A stretch of DNA of 64,000 nucleotides. Source: an uncultured Chlorobiaceae bacterium (lineage in GTDB: Bacteria > Bacteroidota > Chlorobiia > Chlorobiales > Chlorobiaceae). Under the pieces are notes generated by a model. It saw only the letters and a program-made list of their open reading frames with translations. It made no database searches and had not been told where the DNA came from. A program made the position numbers and the translations under genes. Within the stretch, counting starts at the first letter, position 1. Each line of letters begins with the position of its first letter. This document shows, in pieces, positions 11,085 to 18,321 of the stretch. The stretch is from positions 84,984 to 148,983 of the forward strand of contig CAJAIK010000094.1 in assembly GCA_903939765.1 (NCBI GenBank). Reading direction: 5' to 3'.

Positions 11085-12917
11085 TTATTCGGTATTATAA
11101 ATCATGTTGAGAGAGTTGTAGACCCTGTCGATGTCGGTGGCATATTTCGCTGTAATATCTTTGCGTTTGAGTTTCATCGTTGGGGTCATGTGACCGTTTT
11201 CAATCGAAAAAGCCGTGTCGATCAGCAGAAACTTGCGCACCTTTTCGTGAGTGGCAAGTTGCCGTGAAACGGTACGGATGAGCTTTTCAAAAAGCTGAAG
11301 AACGCTTTTATTTTCAATAAGCTCTTTGTTTGTTGCTCCTGTAATTCCTTCAGCAGTGGCAAACTCCTTGAGCTTATTGAAATCAGGAACAATAAGTGCA
11401 ATCAGAAATGGTTTTTTTTCGCCGATGACAATGACCTGGTCGACATAGGGGCTTTCGGAAATCAGCTCCTCGATAGGCATTGGCGCAATATTTTTACCAC
11501 CAGAGGTAACAATGATATGTTTTTTTCGATCGGTTATTTTCAGATAGCCATCCCGGTCAATAATTCCAATATCGCCGGTGTGGAACCACCCATTCTTGAT
11601 AACTTCACGGGTTGCCTCTTCATCTTTCCAATACCCTTTCATAATATTCGGGCCCTTCAGCAGTATTTCGCCATCCTCAGCAATTTTGACCTCTACATTG
11701 TTAACTGCCGGTCCTACGGTTCCATATTTGACTTTTTCAGGTCGATTCACATGGGTTACCGGTGAAGTTTCAGTCAGTCCAAACCCCTCAAGGATTGTGA
11801 TATCGAGAGCCTGAAAAAATTCGCCAATTTTCTGCGGCAGGGCAGCTCCGCCAGAAACGAAATAGCGCAACCTTCCGCCAAATTTGAGTTTGATTTTGTT
11901 GTAAACAAGCTTTTCGGCCAACGCATGTTGCACAGAAAGAAGTTTGTGTGCAACACCTCTTTCACTGATTTCCTTGTGATATTTTTCGCCTGTATTCAGT
12001 GCCCAGTAAAAGATTTTCTGTTTTATTGCGCTCTGTGTTGAAATTTGCTTCAGTATGCTCATCTTGATGCGGTCAAACAGTCTCGGGACGGTAAAGATGA
12101 TTGTCGGCCGAGCCTCACTCATATTCAGGGAAATCGTTTCAATACTTTCAGCCAGATAGATGGTTGCTCCACAGGAAAAAAGCAGATAGTAACCGCCGGT
12201 TCGCTCATAGGCGTGACAGAGAGGAAGAAATGAGAGACCGCAATCTGTTTCGTCGAGGCGAATAACTGATGAGCAGGATTTGACATTTTCACAAATGTTG
12301 CGGTGCGTGAGCATGACCCCTTTTGGAACTCCTGTTGTGCCGGATGTGTAGATGATGGTTGCCACGTCGTCGGGCTCAACAATCGTCCCGTCAAGGATCC
12401 ACGGTTTTTCTTCAAGAATTTTATCACCCATCGCTTTGACCTGGTTCAGGTCCAGAACATCTTCCACAGCCTCCTCAAGTCGGTTCATGACCACCACAAG
12501 TGTCAATTCAGGAAGGTTTTGCCATATCGAAAGGATTTTGCCAAGCTGAAGCATGTTTGAGACTATGACAGCTTTGGCACTGCTGTTTTTGAGAATGTAC
12601 TCAATCTGGTTGGCTGGCAGGGAAGGGTAAAGCGGAACGTTGATTGCCCCGATATTCAGAATAGCCATGTCAGCAAGATACCATCCAGGCCTGTTTTCCG
12701 AAAGAATGGCAACCCGCTCTTTCAGAGTGATGCCGTTGTGTTTCAGAAAAGCAGAAAGTGCATGGATGTCCTTTCCAAATGCATCATAAGAGATGGGTTC
12801 ATATACCCCATTGATCTTCCTTGCAATCGGGAATTTGGACTCCTGCCCTTTGAAGTGATGAAAAACAGAGGAGAAGAGCTCTGGTAATGTCTGGAAGTCA
12901 GGATTGATAAGTCCCAT
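11085..12917 (-). CDS. Long-chain acyl-CoA ligase (AMP-binding)
   Basis: A 610-residue ANL-superfamily adenylating enzyme. The P-loop [20 protein letters not shown] is near residue 205, [10 protein letters not shown] near 395, the hinge [27 protein letters not shown] near 455-480, and a C-terminal lid domain follows. This is the arrangement of FadD15/FACS-type long-chain fatty acid:CoA ligases, which activate fatty acids with ATP and CoA. In an autotroph it more likely recycles or incorporates fatty acids than degrades them. It is monocistronic, divergent from the surface-sugar operon that starts 199 bases away. Confidence 0.9.
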
Positions 12918-13116
12918 CAGTGCAAGATGTTTTCTTGTGGAAAATATCCCAAAAAGGGAGAAAAGCCCGGAAGTTCACCGGATCGTCATGTGCAGGCAGT
13001 GCGCAGCACGTTAATGGCAATTTCAATGATTAATAAATATTTAACCATACATTCTTATCTTTGCAAATTATGAAAATGATTTTTGAGTTTTTTTTAGCTT
13101 TGTTTCCTGACTTTTT

Positions 13117-14178
13117 ATGCAATTGACGAAAAAATCAAGCAGTGCTTTGATTGGTTATATCGGACTTGCGCTTGGCATTGTTCTGGTTGTGTTTCAGTTT
13201 CGTCAAATTGATTTTGCCAGTGTTGTTTTGCGGATCTCCTCAATCGGCTTTTCCTCGGTATTTATTCTTCTGCCATTTCTCATGCTGCATCTTTTGGAAA
13301 CAGTTGCATGGATAAGGGTTTTTCCTCCGAGCATAACGGCAATATCGTTTTTAAAGCTGCTGAAAATTCAGTTTATAGCTGAAACCATATCCATGACGCT
13401 TCCAGCAGGGATGGCTATCGGTGAACCTCTTCGTCCTTTTCTTTGTCAAAAATTTATTGGCATTCCTCTTCCCGCAGGTGTGGCGAGTGTCGCTGTGCGT
13501 AAACTCATGCTTGGTGTGGCACAGGGACTTTATACCATTATCGGTGCCATAGCTGGTTTTTCGCTTTTGCAGACGGTTTCCATCCCGATATTTCCTGTTG
13601 CTGTGCTTGGTTATATTATGGTTGGAGCTGGAGCAATGGTTTTTCTCGTTTTTCTCGTTTTGCTTTTGCTTTTGCTTAACGGAAACGCCGCACAGAATGT
13701 GCATAAACTTTTAATGTTGGTGCCATTCAAAAAGGTGAAAACGTGGCTGCTTACAAAGGAGGCTGGATTTCTTGATACCGACGATGAGTTGAGGAGTTTT
13801 GATACGCAGTTTGCCGGCCGCCTGTTTTTTGTCTTGCTCATTTATATTTTGGCCTGGTTCATGCTTGCAATTGAGAGTTTCATTATACTCCGGTTGCTTG
13901 GTGTCGAGCTCTCTTTTCTGCAGGTGCTTGCCATGGATACAGCAATTACGATGCTGCGGGGCATCTTTTTTTTCATCCCATCAGGACTCGGGGTGCAGGA
14001 GTTGGGGTATCGTCTTTTTTTTCAAGCGCTCGGTATGCATGATTTTGCTGATTATGGCGCATTTGTGCTTTTGAGGCGCTTCAAGGAACTTCTCTGGTAC
14101 AGTTTTGGCTACGGGGTTATGTTTTTTTCAGGGGTTCATCTGCGTGATGCGGAAGAGATGAGTAACGGAGATTTATGA
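13117..14178 (+). CDS. Integral membrane protein of the LPG-synthase-TM / UPF0104 (YbhN) family
   Basis: A 353-residue protein with about 8 hydrophobic helices. It matches the lysylphosphatidylglycerol-synthase transmembrane/flippase family: TLPAGMAIGEPLRPFL (about 91-106) and the C-terminal FFIPSGLGVQELGYRLFF are the conserved membrane segments. It lacks the cytoplasmic aminoacyl-transferase domain of MprF, so it is a membrane-only member. Such proteins sit in many polysaccharide and lipid loci and are suspected flippases. It is the first gene of a tight five-gene operon; its stop overlaps the next start by 4 bases (ATGA). Confidence 0.8.
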   Translation: MQLTKKSSSALIGYIGLALGIVLVVFQFRQIDFASVVLRISSIGFSSVFILLPFLMLHLLETVAWIRVFPPSITAISFLKLLKIQFIAETISMTLPAGMAIGEPLRPFLCQKFIGIPLPAGVASVAVRKLMLGVAQGLYTIIGAIAGFSLLQTVSIPIFPVAVLGYIMVGAGAMVFLVFLVLLLLLLNGNAAQNVHKLLMLVPFKKVKTWLLTKEAGFLDTDDELRSFDTQFAGRLFFVLLIYILAWFMLAIESFIILRLLGVELSFLQVLAMDTAITMLRGIFFFIPSGLGVQELGYRLFFQALGMHDFADYGAFVLLRRFKELLWYSFGYGVMFFSGVHLRDAEEMSNGDL

Positions 14179-15131
14179 AAAAGAAAGTATTATTTATTTG
14201 CGGATCAATGAATCAGACAACCCAGATGCATCAGATTGCCGGGTTTATGACCGATTACGACCAATATTTTTCACCGTTTTTCAGTGATGGCATCCTCGGT
14301 TCTGCAAGCGACAGAGGGCTGCTTGAGTTTACCATTATGGGGCGCAAGCGCTCAGAACGTACACTTGACTATCTTCGTTTTAATAATCTGAAGCTTGATA
14401 TTGGCGGTTTTGCCCACGCTTATGATCTGGTGGTGACCTGTACGGATCTCATTGTTCCAAAACATATACGTCGAAAGAAAATTGTGCTGGTACAGGAAGG
14501 GATGACTGAACCGGAAACGCTTCTCTATCAACTTGCAAGAAATTTCCAGTGGATTCCCCGCTGGATTGCCGGTACGGCCATGACGGGGTTATCTGATGCC
14601 TATGAGAAGTTTTGTGTTGCCAGTGAAGGCTATCGTGATCTGTTTATCCGCAAAGGGGTGAGCCCTGCAAAGATTGAGGTGACCAGTATTCCGAACTTTG
14701 ACAATTGCGAAAAGTATCTTCAGAACGATTTTGACCATCGCGATTACGTGCTTGTCTGTACATCAGATAACCGTGAAACGTTTATTTACGAAAATCGTCC
14801 AAAAAACATCAGGAAGTATCTTGAAATAGCCGATGGGCGTCAGCTTCTTTTCAAACTGCATCCCAATGAAAATATCGAAAGGGCGACAAGGGAAATTGAA
14901 CGCTGCGCTCCCCAGAGTCTTGTTTTCAGTGAAGGCCGAACCGAAGAGATGATTGCCAACTCAGTTATGCTGATTGCTCAGTTTTCATCCACTATTTTTG
15001 TGGGCTCTGCTCTGAACAAGGTTGTGCATTGTGGTCTTCGTCCTGAAGAGCTAAAATCGCTCACTCCGATACAGAATAAATCAGCAGCAAGAAAAATCGC
15101 TGATGTTTGCCGGCAAGTGATTGAGGGTTGA
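14175..15131 (+). CDS. GT-B fold glycosyltransferase with sialyltransferase-like motifs
   Basis: A 318-residue soluble protein not assigned to a named family. Three spaced elements resemble those shared by bacterial CMP-sugar-using GT-B transferases: QEG (107-109, in [10 protein letters not shown], like the D/E-D/E-G motif), HP (229-230, in LLFKLHPNE) and SS (271-272, in IAQFSSTIF). The N-terminus [10 protein letters not shown] is a Rossmann-like strand-loop. Position between a flippase-like membrane protein and a CMP-sugar synthetase supports transfer of a CMP-activated acidic sugar. A UDP-GlcNAc-2-epimerase-like or CDP-glycerol-transferase-like relative is the alternative. Family and donor are inferred. 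Confidence 0.55.
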
Positions 15132-15153
15132 CAACCATGTACCACTGTTTTTT

Positions 15154-15867
15154 ATGCATACTGTAGCAATCATTCCTGCAAGAGGCGGGTCCAAAGGGCT
15201 GAAAGAGAAAAATATTTATCCTGTCGCAGGAAAACCTTTGCTGGCGTGGACTGTTTTGCAGGCGTTGGCTTCAACAAGTATTGAGAGAGTCTTTGTCTCA
15301 ACTGACGACGAGGCCATTGCCAAAGTTGCTTCAGAGTATGGAGCGGAGGTTATTGTACGCCCTCCCGAACTTGCTGGCGACAAAGCAAGCTCCGAATCGG
15401 CCATATTGCATGCCGTCGGGGTTATTGAACGGGATTACAATATGCCGCTCAGTACGATTGTCTTTTTGCAGGCCACCTCTCCCTTGAGGAAACAGGGAGA
15501 TATTGATCGTGCGGTAGAGCTTTTTTTTCAGGAAGGGGCTGATTCGCTTATTTCAGTCACCAGAGCCGATGATCTTACCCTGTGGGAATTTCAGGACGGG
15601 AAATGGGGGAGTGTCAACTTTGATTACCGCAATCGCGGGATGCGGCAGGATCGTCCAACGCAGTTCATTGAAAATGGCTCAATCTATATTTTCAAACCTG
15701 AAATTCTTGTTACTTTTGGCAATAGAATCGGTCAAAAGCTCTCTGCCTATGAAATGGAGTTCTGGCAGACATGGGAGATTGATACTATTGAGGAGATAGA
15801 TTTGATTGAGTATTACTTGTATAAAAAAAACCTGGGCATTCAGGATGCAAATCAACAGAACCTTTAG
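15154..15867 (+). CDS. CMP-sugar synthetase (NeuA-type acylneuraminate cytidylyltransferase family)
   Basis: A 237-residue nucleotidyltransferase. [16 protein letters not shown] at the N-terminus is the CTP-binding signature of NeuA-type CMP-nonulosonate/Kdo-like synthetases. [33 protein letters not shown] and ENGSIYIF follow in the family order. I use the ATG at 15154; the listed TTG start at 15121 would overlap the previous stop and add residues ahead of the conserved first strand. It activates an acidic sugar with CTP. No nonulosonate synthase (NeuB) or epimerase (NeuC) is in the operon; the partners are an alcohol dehydrogenase and an aminotransferase, which suggests a modified Kdo-like substrate rather than sialic acid. 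Confidence 0.85.
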
Positions 15868-15879
15868 ATCACTGATTTT

Positions 15880-17010
15880 ATGAATTTCTTTTTATCCACC
15901 GATCTTATTATCGGGGTTAACGAAGCGCTGAAGCTGAATGAGCATCTTGCACAATTATCGGTGAAGAAGCCGGGCATTATCTACGATGCCAACATAGCAG
16001 GAACTCTCTATTTTCAGGAAGTTTTGAGAAACCTTACCTCAGAATATCCCAATGCCGTGCTCTCTTGCAACGATTTCGGCGGAGAGCCAACCTATACCTA
16101 TCTTGAAACGGTGGCTGAATTTTTCCGGAGCAATCCGCCTGATGCAATTGTTGCTATAGGCGGTGGAAGTACCCTTGATCTTGGAAAAGGGGTCGCCCTG
16201 CTTATGACCAATACCGTTCCGGCCCTTTCGCTCAAGGGTTTCCCTTCCGGAGTTCATGATCCTCTGCCGCTTGTAACCGTGCCCTCACTTCTTGGCAGCG
16301 GTGCCGAAATCAGTTTTAATGCCGTCTTTATTGATGAGGTTGAGGGGCGCAAACTTGGCATTAACAGCCGGAAAAATTTTCCGAAAAAAGCAGTTATTGA
16401 CCCGCAACTTTCTATGACTGCTCCTCTGGAAAGCGTTATTGCATCGGCTATGGATAGCCTTGTGCACTGCGTTGACAGTTTCGGTTCGATAAAGCATACG
16501 GCGTTGAGCAGGATTTTTGCCGTCGAAGGATTTCAGCGCACCTTTTATGCGTTGCAGCAAAACCAGCTTGATCGGGCGGAGTCGCGACTTGACCTTGCCA
16601 TTGGCAGTGTTTGCGGCACAGCGGCACTCATGAATTCCGGAGACGGTCCGACCAATGGTTTTGCCTACTATCTCGGCGTAAAGCACCGTGTGCCGCACGG
16701 TCTTGCTGGCGCCATCTTTCTCAAGGAGGTGATGCGCTATAACCATCTTCAGGGATATGAAAAATATGCCATCCTTAATCCCATGCGTTCAACTCCTTCA
16801 CCAAAAGAGGCTACCGTTGAACTGCTTGAAGAGATGGACGAACTCTATCAGCAGCTTCAGATCCCTTCGCTTGTTCCTTACGGGTATGGTAAAGGGAATG
16901 CTGCTGAATTTGCCCGTAACGCATCAGAAGCGCTGAAAGGCTCTTTTTCGGGCAATCCGGTTGAATTTACTGAAGAGTCGGCGCTGGCCGTTGTTTCTCG
17001 ATTAACCTAA
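15880..17010 (+). CDS. Iron-containing alcohol dehydrogenase family protein (possible KdnB-like sugar oxidase)
   Basis: A 376-residue Fe-ADH/dehydroquinate-synthase-fold enzyme. The dinucleotide/phosphate site AIGGGSTLDLGKG is at 92-104 and the metal region begins MDSLVHCVDS (Asp192, His196). PHGLAGAIF supplies His273. The position of the third usual His ligand (HAxAHxLG in typical Fe-ADHs) reads NGFAYYLG, so Asn259 appears there and His269 may compensate. It lies 12 bases after the CMP-sugar synthetase and 22 before a DegT aminotransferase. In Shewanella an Fe-ADH-family oxidase (KdnB) and a DegT aminotransferase (KdnA) convert Kdo to 8-amino-Kdo before CMP activation; the same trio here suggests an analogous oxidation. 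Function is inferred. Confidence 0.7.
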   Translation: MNFFLSTDLIIGVNEALKLNEHLAQLSVKKPGIIYDANIAGTLYFQEVLRNLTSEYPNAVLSCNDFGGEPTYTYLETVAEFFRSNPPDAIVAIGGGSTLDLGKGVALLMTNTVPALSLKGFPSGVHDPLPLVTVPSLLGSGAEISFNAVFIDEVEGRKLGINSRKNFPKKAVIDPQLSMTAPLESVIASAMDSLVHCVDSFGSIKHTALSRIFAVEGFQRTFYALQQNQLDRAESRLDLAIGSVCGTAALMNSGDGPTNGFAYYLGVKHRVPHGLAGAIFLKEVMRYNHLQGYEKYAILNPMRSTPSPKEATVELLEEMDELYQQLQIPSLVPYGYGKGNAAEFARNASEALKGSFSGNPVEFTEESALAVVSRLT

Positions 17011-17032
17011 CAAAAAGTGCAGGATACCTATT

Positions 17033-18190
17033 ATGGCGGGTGCAGAATTAATTGGACGTGAGGAATTGGCTGAAATACAGGAGCTTTTCAGCCGCGAAAA
17101 GGTCAATTTGTACCGTTACGGCGGGGGCAATTACAAGGCAAGGGAGTTTGAGGAAAAATTTGCTGCTTGGATGGGTGTGAAGTATGCCCATGCGGTTTCT
17201 TCAGGTACCGCAGCAATCCATTGCGCCCTTGCTGGCGCCGGGATTGGGCCCGGTGATGAGGTTATTACAACAGCATGGACCTTTATCGCTCCGATTGAGG
17301 CGATCAGTGCTCTGGGTGCTTTGCCTGTACCGGTTGAGCTTGATGAAACGTATCATCTTGACCCGCTTGAGGTTGAAAAGGCTATTACACCCGCCACAAA
17401 AGCTGTGGTGGCAATTCCCATGTGGGCATCTCCGAAAATGGATGAGCTTTCCGCTCTTTGCCGCAAGCATGGACTGATACTGATTGAAGATGCAGCACAG
17501 GCGCTTGGAGCCACCTTCAAGGGAGAGAAACTCGGCACCTTTGGAAGTGTTGCCTCTTTCTCCTTTGATGCTGGCAAGACGCTTCACACCGGTGAGGGCG
17601 GAATCATTGTAACCAACGATAAAGATATTTATGATCGTGCAGCAGAGTTTTCTGACCATGGTCACATGCACCAGCCCGGTTTACCGAGGGGTAAAGATCC
17701 CAGACGCTCAAAAGGGCTGAACTTGCGTCTCAGTGAAGTGACCGCGGCCATCGGACTGGCCCAGCTTGCCAAAATTGAGACCATTCTTTCGAAATCAAGA
17801 GAGAATAAAAAGAAAATCAAGGAGGCAATCCGTCATCTCGACAACCTTATTTTCAGACCGTTCAGCGATGAAGCGGGCGCACAGGGAGATACACTGATTT
17901 TCAGGGTAAAGGATCGTGAAGCGGCACTGCAGTTTGAAGCGCACCTGACAGAGCACGGCTTTGGCACCAAAATTCTTCCTGAAGCGCTTGACTGGCATTT
18001 TGCCGGGGTATGGGGTCACCTTCTTGGAGAGTATGATCGCTATTGTAATGCTGATCTTGAAGCTCTTTGGCCAAAAACCGGCATTATGCTCCGCAGCAGT
18101 ATCTGTTTGAATATTCCAGTGCTGATGGACGATGCGACAATTGAGAAGCTCGTTCAGGCCATTATTTCCGGTTCACATAAGATCGGATAG
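17033..18190 (+). CDS. DegT/DnrJ/EryC1 sugar aminotransferase (possible KdnA-like)
   Basis: A 385-residue PLP-dependent sugar aminotransferase. SSGTAAIHCAL (57-67) binds the cofactor phosphate, IEDAAQALGA (151-160) holds the pyridine-nitrogen Asp, and Lys182 in FSFDAGKTLHTGEGG is the Schiff-base lysine. The N-terminal MAGAELIGREE and the segment FSDHGHMHQPGLPRG followed by GLNLRLSEVTAAIGLAQL resemble, from memory, the Shewanella 8-amino-Kdo aminotransferase KdnA more than ArnB/WecE-type enzymes. With the upstream oxidase it would install an amino group on a carbonyl sugar. It is the last gene of the operon and is followed by a terminator. Confidence 0.8.
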   Translation: MAGAELIGREELAEIQELFSREKVNLYRYGGGNYKAREFEEKFAAWMGVKYAHAVSSGTAAIHCALAGAGIGPGDEVITTAWTFIAPIEAISALGALPVPVELDETYHLDPLEVEKAITPATKAVVAIPMWASPKMDELSALCRKHGLILIEDAAQALGATFKGEKLGTFGSVASFSFDAGKTLHTGEGGIIVTNDKDIYDRAAEFSDHGHMHQPGLPRGKDPRRSKGLNLRLSEVTAAIGLAQLAKIETILSKSRENKKKIKEAIRHLDNLIFRPFSDEAGAQGDTLIFRVKDREAALQFEAHLTEHGFGTKILPEALDWHFAGVWGHLLGEYDRYCNADLEALWPKTGIMLRSSICLNIPVLMDDATIEKLVQAIISGSHKIG

Positions 18191-18216: not shown

Positions 18217-18244
18217 AAGCCTGCTTGATGCAGGCTTTTTTTGT
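18217..18244 (+). terminator. Intrinsic terminator after the surface-sugar operon
   Basis: AAGCCTGC and GCAGGCTT pair perfectly around a TTGAT loop and run into a T7 tract. It sits 26 bases after the aminotransferase stop and immediately before the 3' end of the convergent tRNA-Cys, so it may serve both strands. Confidence 0.85.
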
Positions 18245-18250
18245 TTCATG

Positions 18251-18321
18251 AGGCGAAGAGCGGACTCGAACCGCTGTAGAAGGTTTTGCAGACCTCTGCC
18301 TAACCACTCGGCCACTTCGCC
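18251..18321 (-). tRNA. tRNA-Cys (anticodon GCA)
   Basis: The reverse complement folds as a 71-nt cloverleaf. The acceptor stem is GGCGAAG/CTTCGCC, the D-arm is GGCCGAGTGGTTAGGC, the anticodon loop is CTGCAAA and the T-arm GCGGTTCGAGTCCGC. The discriminator base is T (U73), as required for Cys. The CCA end is not encoded. It is convergent with the surface-sugar operon. Confidence 0.95.

Follow-up and report, generated by a model that had tools for sequence, protein, structure and literature searches.

A conserved five-gene operon in Chlorobiaceae

We examined five adjoining genes in a 64,000-nucleotide stretch of DNA (the window) from an uncultured Chlorobiaceae bacterium (contig CAJAIK010000094.1 of assembly GCA_903939765.1, positions 84,984 to 148,983). 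We consider it fairly probable that they cover one half of a pathway for a sialic-acid-like nonulosonic acid, comprising its amination, activation and transfer, the sugar being probably 2-keto-3-deoxynononic acid (Kdn), with its backbone made at another locus. All five open reading frames (ORFs) lie on the forward strand. The first (13117-14178, 353 amino acids) encodes an LPG_synthase_TM or HpnL-like polytopic membrane protein (PF03706, 9e-24). The second (14175-15131, 318 amino acids) has no Pfam assignment and encodes, judging from a structural model and motifs, a GT-B fold glycosyltransferase (GT), which we propose to be a CMP-nonulosonate transferase. The third (15154-15867, 237 amino acids from the ATG, PF02348) specifies a NeuA-type CMP-ulosonate cytidylyltransferase; besides the ATG at 15154, a TTG at 15121 could serve as its start. 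It is followed by a dehydrogenase of the iron-dependent alcohol dehydrogenase (Fe-ADH) family that falls outside the KdnB clade (15880-17010, 376 amino acids, PF00465/PF25137) and by a KdnA-like DegT aminotransferase (17033-18190, 385 amino acids, PF01041). The first two genes overlap by 4 bases and the later ones are separated by 22, 12 and 22 bases. A hairpin with a T tract, resembling an intrinsic terminator, stands 3' of the operon on the same strand (18217-18237), and beyond it lies a tRNA-Cys on the opposite strand (18250-18321). The ORF coordinates and the hairpin match exactly the gene order, spacing and terminator given in an earlier note on this DNA.

The same note had suggested looking for this gene order in other Chlorobiaceae, where it proved to be conserved. 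It was kept in 24 of 24 loci examined, as far as the contigs run (in two of these, L089 and L090, the contig ends before KdnA or before Fe-ADH), and likewise in six further Chlorobiaceae records from GTDB contigs, again as far as each contig runs; these six were the sole close Fe-ADH relatives among the matches listed. Such conservation argues that the operon is not a chance arrangement. NeuA was found in 49 of 49 Chlorobiaceae genomes of our sample of the order and Fe-ADH in 80 of 86 in our sample of the phylum. Two Chlorobiaceae genomes (G110 and G153) had no close KdnA match because their contigs stop inside the operon, and loss of the operon was ruled out for them. The operon is therefore real and spread through the family.

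Relation to the KdnA-KdnB pathway

The earlier note suggested that the operon may make and transfer an amino-modified CMP-sugar resembling 3-deoxy-D-manno-octulosonic acid (Kdo), by the chemistry through which Shewanella KdnB and KdnA form 8-amino-Kdo (Kdo8N). In such a Kdo8N pathway, Kdo would be the substrate of the Fe-ADH and of the KdnA-like enzyme, and the NeuA-type enzyme would produce CMP-Kdo8N destined for the inner core of lipooligosaccharide (LOS). The best match of the aminotransferase among solved structures was indeed Shewanella KdnA (5k8b, 7.5e-79, 42% identity; next best match 8e-47), and in the aminotransferase tree the window protein fell within the wider KdnA superfamily (support 100/99). 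However, Shewanella KdnA and the KdnA-like proteins of Bacteroidota formed a clade (97/100) that holds all five KdnB-linked KdnA proteins and excludes the sequences of Chlorobi, of genome G131 and of an Elusimicrobia contig. The enzyme is thus KdnA-like but lies outside the clade of KdnB-linked KdnA, in a tree with long branches and an uncertain deep order.

The Fe-ADH did not join the KdnB clade, where the Kdo8N proposal would place it. It matched KdnB (5k8c) at 25% identity with a low rank (2e-15), and a tree uniting Chlorobi Fe-ADH and KdnB as one clade was rejected by the approximately unbiased (AU) test (p-AU 0.003). All Chlorobi sequences examined have Asn259 in place of the third metal-ligand His of Fe-ADHs, and G131 has Gly, whereas all KdnB keep the His. 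The nearest relative of the Chlorobi Fe-ADH was that of G131 (clade support 100/100), where the Fe-ADH, a KdnA-like gene and NeuA lie inside a NeuB-NeuC-NeuD sialic acid cluster; the G131 NeuB, NeuC and NeuD all scored above curated cut-offs. The Chlorobiaceae operon resembles the G131 cluster in placing a related Fe-ADH and KdnA-like enzyme next to NeuA, but it has no NeuC or NeuD, and the NeuB is a short protein without a SAF domain, encoded at another locus.

The operon cytidylyltransferase is classed by its matches as NeuA-type, not KdsB-type: its best PDB match was a CMP-NeuNAc synthetase (6ifd, 2e-37), compared to 1e-8 for KdsB. A complete, separate set of Kdo genes is present elsewhere in the genome, namely KdsA with a KdsC-like gene (C80), KdsB (C96) and WaaA (C66). 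A KdsC-like HAD protein beside KdsA (L070:2253-2870) reads FPVDGVLNG where the usual motif starts with the nucleophilic Asp, and may be inactive.

The neighbourhoods of true KdnA-KdnB pairs in other genomes look different. A KdnA-like gene with an Fe-ADH close by was seen in five other loci of the phylum (L034, L035, L041, L043 and L044; coordinates L034:5689-9652, L041:6568-9567 and L044:5550-9374). KdsB stands between the two genes in two of the five (L034 and L041), and KdsA is present in L044. Because the L034 Fe-ADH matches KdnB at 7e-142 (5k8c), and so is KdnB by sequence, Shewanella is probably not alone in having a true Kdo8N pathway. An Elusimicrobia contig (L129:8977-11351 and 12424-13248) carries an adjoining Fe-ADH and KdnA-like pair, its KdnA-like protein being 42% identical to the window aminotransferase; an LPG_synthase_TM protein lies nearby, and no NeuA was found on that locus. 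Most other Fe-ADHs among the GTDB-contig matches listed were unrelated proteins, suited to serve as an outgroup.

The transferase and its linkage to NeuB

In a Pfam search, the window GT reached no curated family. An AlphaFold (AF2) model built from 32 diverse orthologs had a pLDDT of 90.6 (63 in an earlier model from 24 close orthologs) and was GT-B like. The GT-B fold claimed in the earlier note, invisible in the sequence, was thus supported by the model and its structural matches. Foldseek returned TagF (3e-9), a CMP-bound capsule synthase (8a0c, 8e-9) and a bacterial polysialyltransferase (5wc6, 4e-8). UDP-GlcNAc 2-epimerases were also among the closest folds, and PF02350 was weakly matched by 24 of the 32 GT members, as might be expected if the protein were a UDP-sugar 2-epimerase-like enzyme feeding NeuB, with transfer done elsewhere. 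However, the GT has no NeuC-type SRAD/GTRPE signature, whereas the G131 NeuC has SRAD, and a profile comparison between the GT and G131 NeuC gave no significant match. The best PDB sequence-profile match was the TagF-like Cps3D (0.002). All orthologs carry QEG and KLHPNE, and S[ST] is conserved among them; HP and SS/T motifs are marks of TagF and of CMP-sialic acid transferases, including bacterial sialyltransferases. The protein thus combines a GT-B fold with the HP and S[ST] motifs found in polysialyltransferase and TagF-like CMP-sugar transferases. It is more likely, if not certainly, a transferase rather than an epimerase, and we regard an epimerase feeding NeuB as very unlikely.

The absence of NeuB from the operon, noted earlier, extends to the whole window, but the source genome has two NeuB genes elsewhere. 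The first is a PseI that scores above its cut-off and belongs to a surface-sugar cluster of the pseudaminic-acid type (L063:6998-12363, on G000:C126), together with a second cytidylyltransferase and a DegT aminotransferase. The second NeuB (G000:C87) is short (PF03102, 255 bits) and without a SAF domain; of 61 Chlorobiales genomes, 60 have it. It adjoins a HAD phosphatase whose best family was the Kdn-9-P phosphatase NF058599, at 140 bits in the source genome and 160 in L068 against a curated cut-off of 180 (KdsC, 129).

In the Kdn route, mannose 6-phosphate and phosphoenolpyruvate give Kdn-9-P, which is dephosphorylated and activated with CMP (PMC6200933). Since the NeuB/HAD pair resembles a Kdn-9-P synthase and phosphatase, the sugar is probably Kdn. 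As in the Kdn pathways of Bacteroides thetaiotaomicron and Prymnesium parvum, the predicted enzymes comprise a NeuB-family synthase, a HAD that may be a Kdn-9-P phosphatase and a CMP-activating enzyme. The Chlorobiaceae scheme departs from those pathways in having proposed oxidation and amination enzymes and a transferase of its own; its genes are divided over two loci, and its activity is a predicted one.

In a survey covering 395 genomes of the phylum, the GT and the short NeuB each turned up in 137 and occurred together in 132 (Fisher p 1.5e-91, a value that overstates the association because the genomes are related). Five genomes had only one of the two and five only the other. Nine of these exceptions belong to Chlorobiales and are 66-92% complete; the tenth, G225, is 97% complete and has only NeuB. 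Outside Chlorobiales, all 44 GT-bearing genomes of the phylum sample have NeuB on the strand of the GT, 3.6-7.2 kb further downstream, and usually next to it a HAD phosphatase matching the Kdn-9-P phosphatase family best. A NeuB-type synthase so placed in relatives, like a dehydrogenase outside the KdnB clade, is what the earlier note had named as counting against its own reading.

We compared the operon with the Shewanella KdnB/KdnA system. Both couple an Fe-ADH family enzyme and a DegT aminotransferase of the KdnA superfamily to CMP activation. The Chlorobiaceae operon differs in its distant Fe-ADH, of another clade and with a lost metal ligand, in its NeuA-type synthetase, in having its own GT-B transferase, and in the evolutionary link of that transferase to NeuB and not to Kds genes. 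The two enzyme trees (Fe-ADH and KdnA), the association of the GT with NeuB and the true KdnA-KdnB neighbours elsewhere led us to drop Kdo8N as first choice, and we now hold it to be quite unlikely. Kdo does occur in Chlorobaculum tepidum LOS (PMC12285230), which suits a Kdo8N route but is equally compatible with the presence of another ulosonate. A KdnA-like enzyme, CMP-sugar synthetase, transferase and membrane protein in one operon still make a CMP-activated amino-ulosonate likely, so that this part of the original proposal is likely right, together with the dedicated transferase and membrane protein, while Kdo as the substrate is likely wrong. The operon is likely the form that a more widespread nonulosonate system takes in Chlorobiaceae.

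Exchange of enzyme sets and the proposed pathway

In other Chlorobiales families, the order of membrane-protein and GT genes is kept and an SpsF-like cytidylyltransferase follows; in two of those genomes, transketolase halves and a class III aminotransferase come after the SpsF-like gene. Outside Chlorobiales, the order is GT, SpsF-like gene, class III aminotransferase, short-chain dehydrogenase/reductase (SDR), NeuB and fatty acid hydroxylase, with the membrane-protein gene at the head, transketolase N and C genes before the aminotransferase and a HAD gene before NeuB as variable members. This order or a close variant was found in 19 of 20 loci examined (L208-L224, L226 and L227). The exception, L225, is a second GT copy in a genome whose other GT copy is NeuB-linked. 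We found no published description of this alternative operon in the literature searched. It shares with Chlorobiaceae an orthologous HAD, an orthologous NeuB (about 63-77% identity) and an orthologous GT, which is 46-59% identical to that of the window. In place of NeuA, Fe-ADH and the KdnA-like enzyme, it has an SpsF-like enzyme, an SDR and a class III aminotransferase, often together with transketolase.

An ortholog of the class III aminotransferase was present in 8 of 12 other Chlorobiales genomes (at 78-100%) and absent from 49 of 49 Chlorobiaceae, where the only matches were HemL-like or other proteins at 39% identity or less. With this enzyme missing, NeuA, Fe-ADH and the KdnA-like enzyme appear to replace the unrelated SpsF, SDR and class III aminotransferase in Chlorobiaceae. 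No SDR was found beside the Chlorobiaceae NeuB genes examined, no genome-wide search for an SDR ortholog having been made. Because both sets hold an oxidoreductase and an aminotransferase, the product is presumably aminated in both. NeuB also occurs in Chlorobiales families without NeuA, Fe-ADH and KdnA, because the SpsF/class III aminotransferase set is present there; a strict dependence of NeuB on the KdnA-type operon was thus ruled out.

Gene content, conservation, protein families, the GT-NeuB linkage of relatives and the exchange of modifying and activating enzymes among lineages are what we observed; from them we infer the reactions of the following scheme, the position of amination, the exact sugar and the acceptor. 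The short NeuB would make a nine-carbon backbone at its separate locus and, by analogy with the Kdn route, the adjacent HAD would remove the phosphate to give free Kdn with an open C9 hydroxyl. The Fe-ADH would then oxidise a hydroxyl, probably this newly freed one, and the KdnA-like enzyme would aminate the oxidised ulosonate, probably at C9. The NeuA-type enzyme would form the CMP sugar, the GT-B enzyme would transfer it to a surface acceptor, and the membrane protein may help move the product or the acceptor.

By analogy, C9 and a Kdn parent appear the likeliest choices. The terminal carbon is the known site of action of KdnA and of KdnB, which is described as a Kdo 8-oxidase (PMC5125639). 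Moreover, the HAD must act before C9 is free, as would suit an oxidation of the terminal carbon late in the pathway. These two points speak against a variant of the same pathway in which a different carbon is aminated, or in which a hexose precursor is aminated ahead of the NeuB condensation. The altered metal site of the Fe-ADH would favour such a variant, and the apparently replaced SDR and class III aminotransferase fix no position; we consider it unlikely. Several observations weigh against the proposed pathway as a whole. With one metal-binding His lost, the predicted activity of the Fe-ADH is not assured, and the HAD score lies below the NF058599 cut-off. The Chlorobiaceae NeuB/HAD pair is not adjacent to the operon and lies hundreds of kb from it in four single-contig genomes. 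The transketolase and SDR of the alternative operon have no detailed role in the scheme, and the product there could differ.

The acceptor is presumably a surface glycan or lipid. Orthologs of the membrane protein, a possible flippase or export helper, head the operon in other Chlorobiales families and in some further genomes of the phylum. A divergent gene for a long-chain, AMP-binding acyl-CoA synthetase-like protein (11085-12917, reverse strand; PF00501, 1.7e-80), of uncertain operon membership, lies beside the operon, and a similar gene adjoins the membrane-protein and GT genes in two other Chlorobiales genomes (loci L202 and L207). This neighbour, the LPG_synthase_TM-type protein and the fatty acid hydroxylase ending the operon of relatives hint at a lipid. 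An aminoglycosphingolipid of Chlorobium limicola was reported by Jensen et al. in 1991, as cited in PMC11762602. One could speculate that the operon product is the headgroup of this lipid. Extended to a conserved nonulosonate-lipid pathway across Chlorobiota and related Bacteroidota, in which two unrelated enzyme sets keep an amino headgroup, which in Chlorobiaceae would probably be 9-amino-9-deoxy-Kdn (an isomer of neuraminic acid) on the aminoglycosphingolipid, the idea seems to us rather doubtful. The sugar of the C. limicola lipid is reportedly neuraminic-acid-like; in the literature searched, we found no paper linking C. limicola with neuraminic acid.

The operon points to a surface sugar of green sulfur bacteria for which we found no description in the literature searched. 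The genes of its pathway are divided between two loci, and only comparison with relatives allows the pathway to be recognised. If the acceptor is a lipid, these may be genes for the Chlorobium aminoglycosphingolipid that, according to the citing paper, was described in 1991. The oxidase, aminotransferase and CMP synthetase were apparently replaced while the synthase, phosphatase and transferase stayed orthologous, which suggests selection to keep an amino-nonulosonate.

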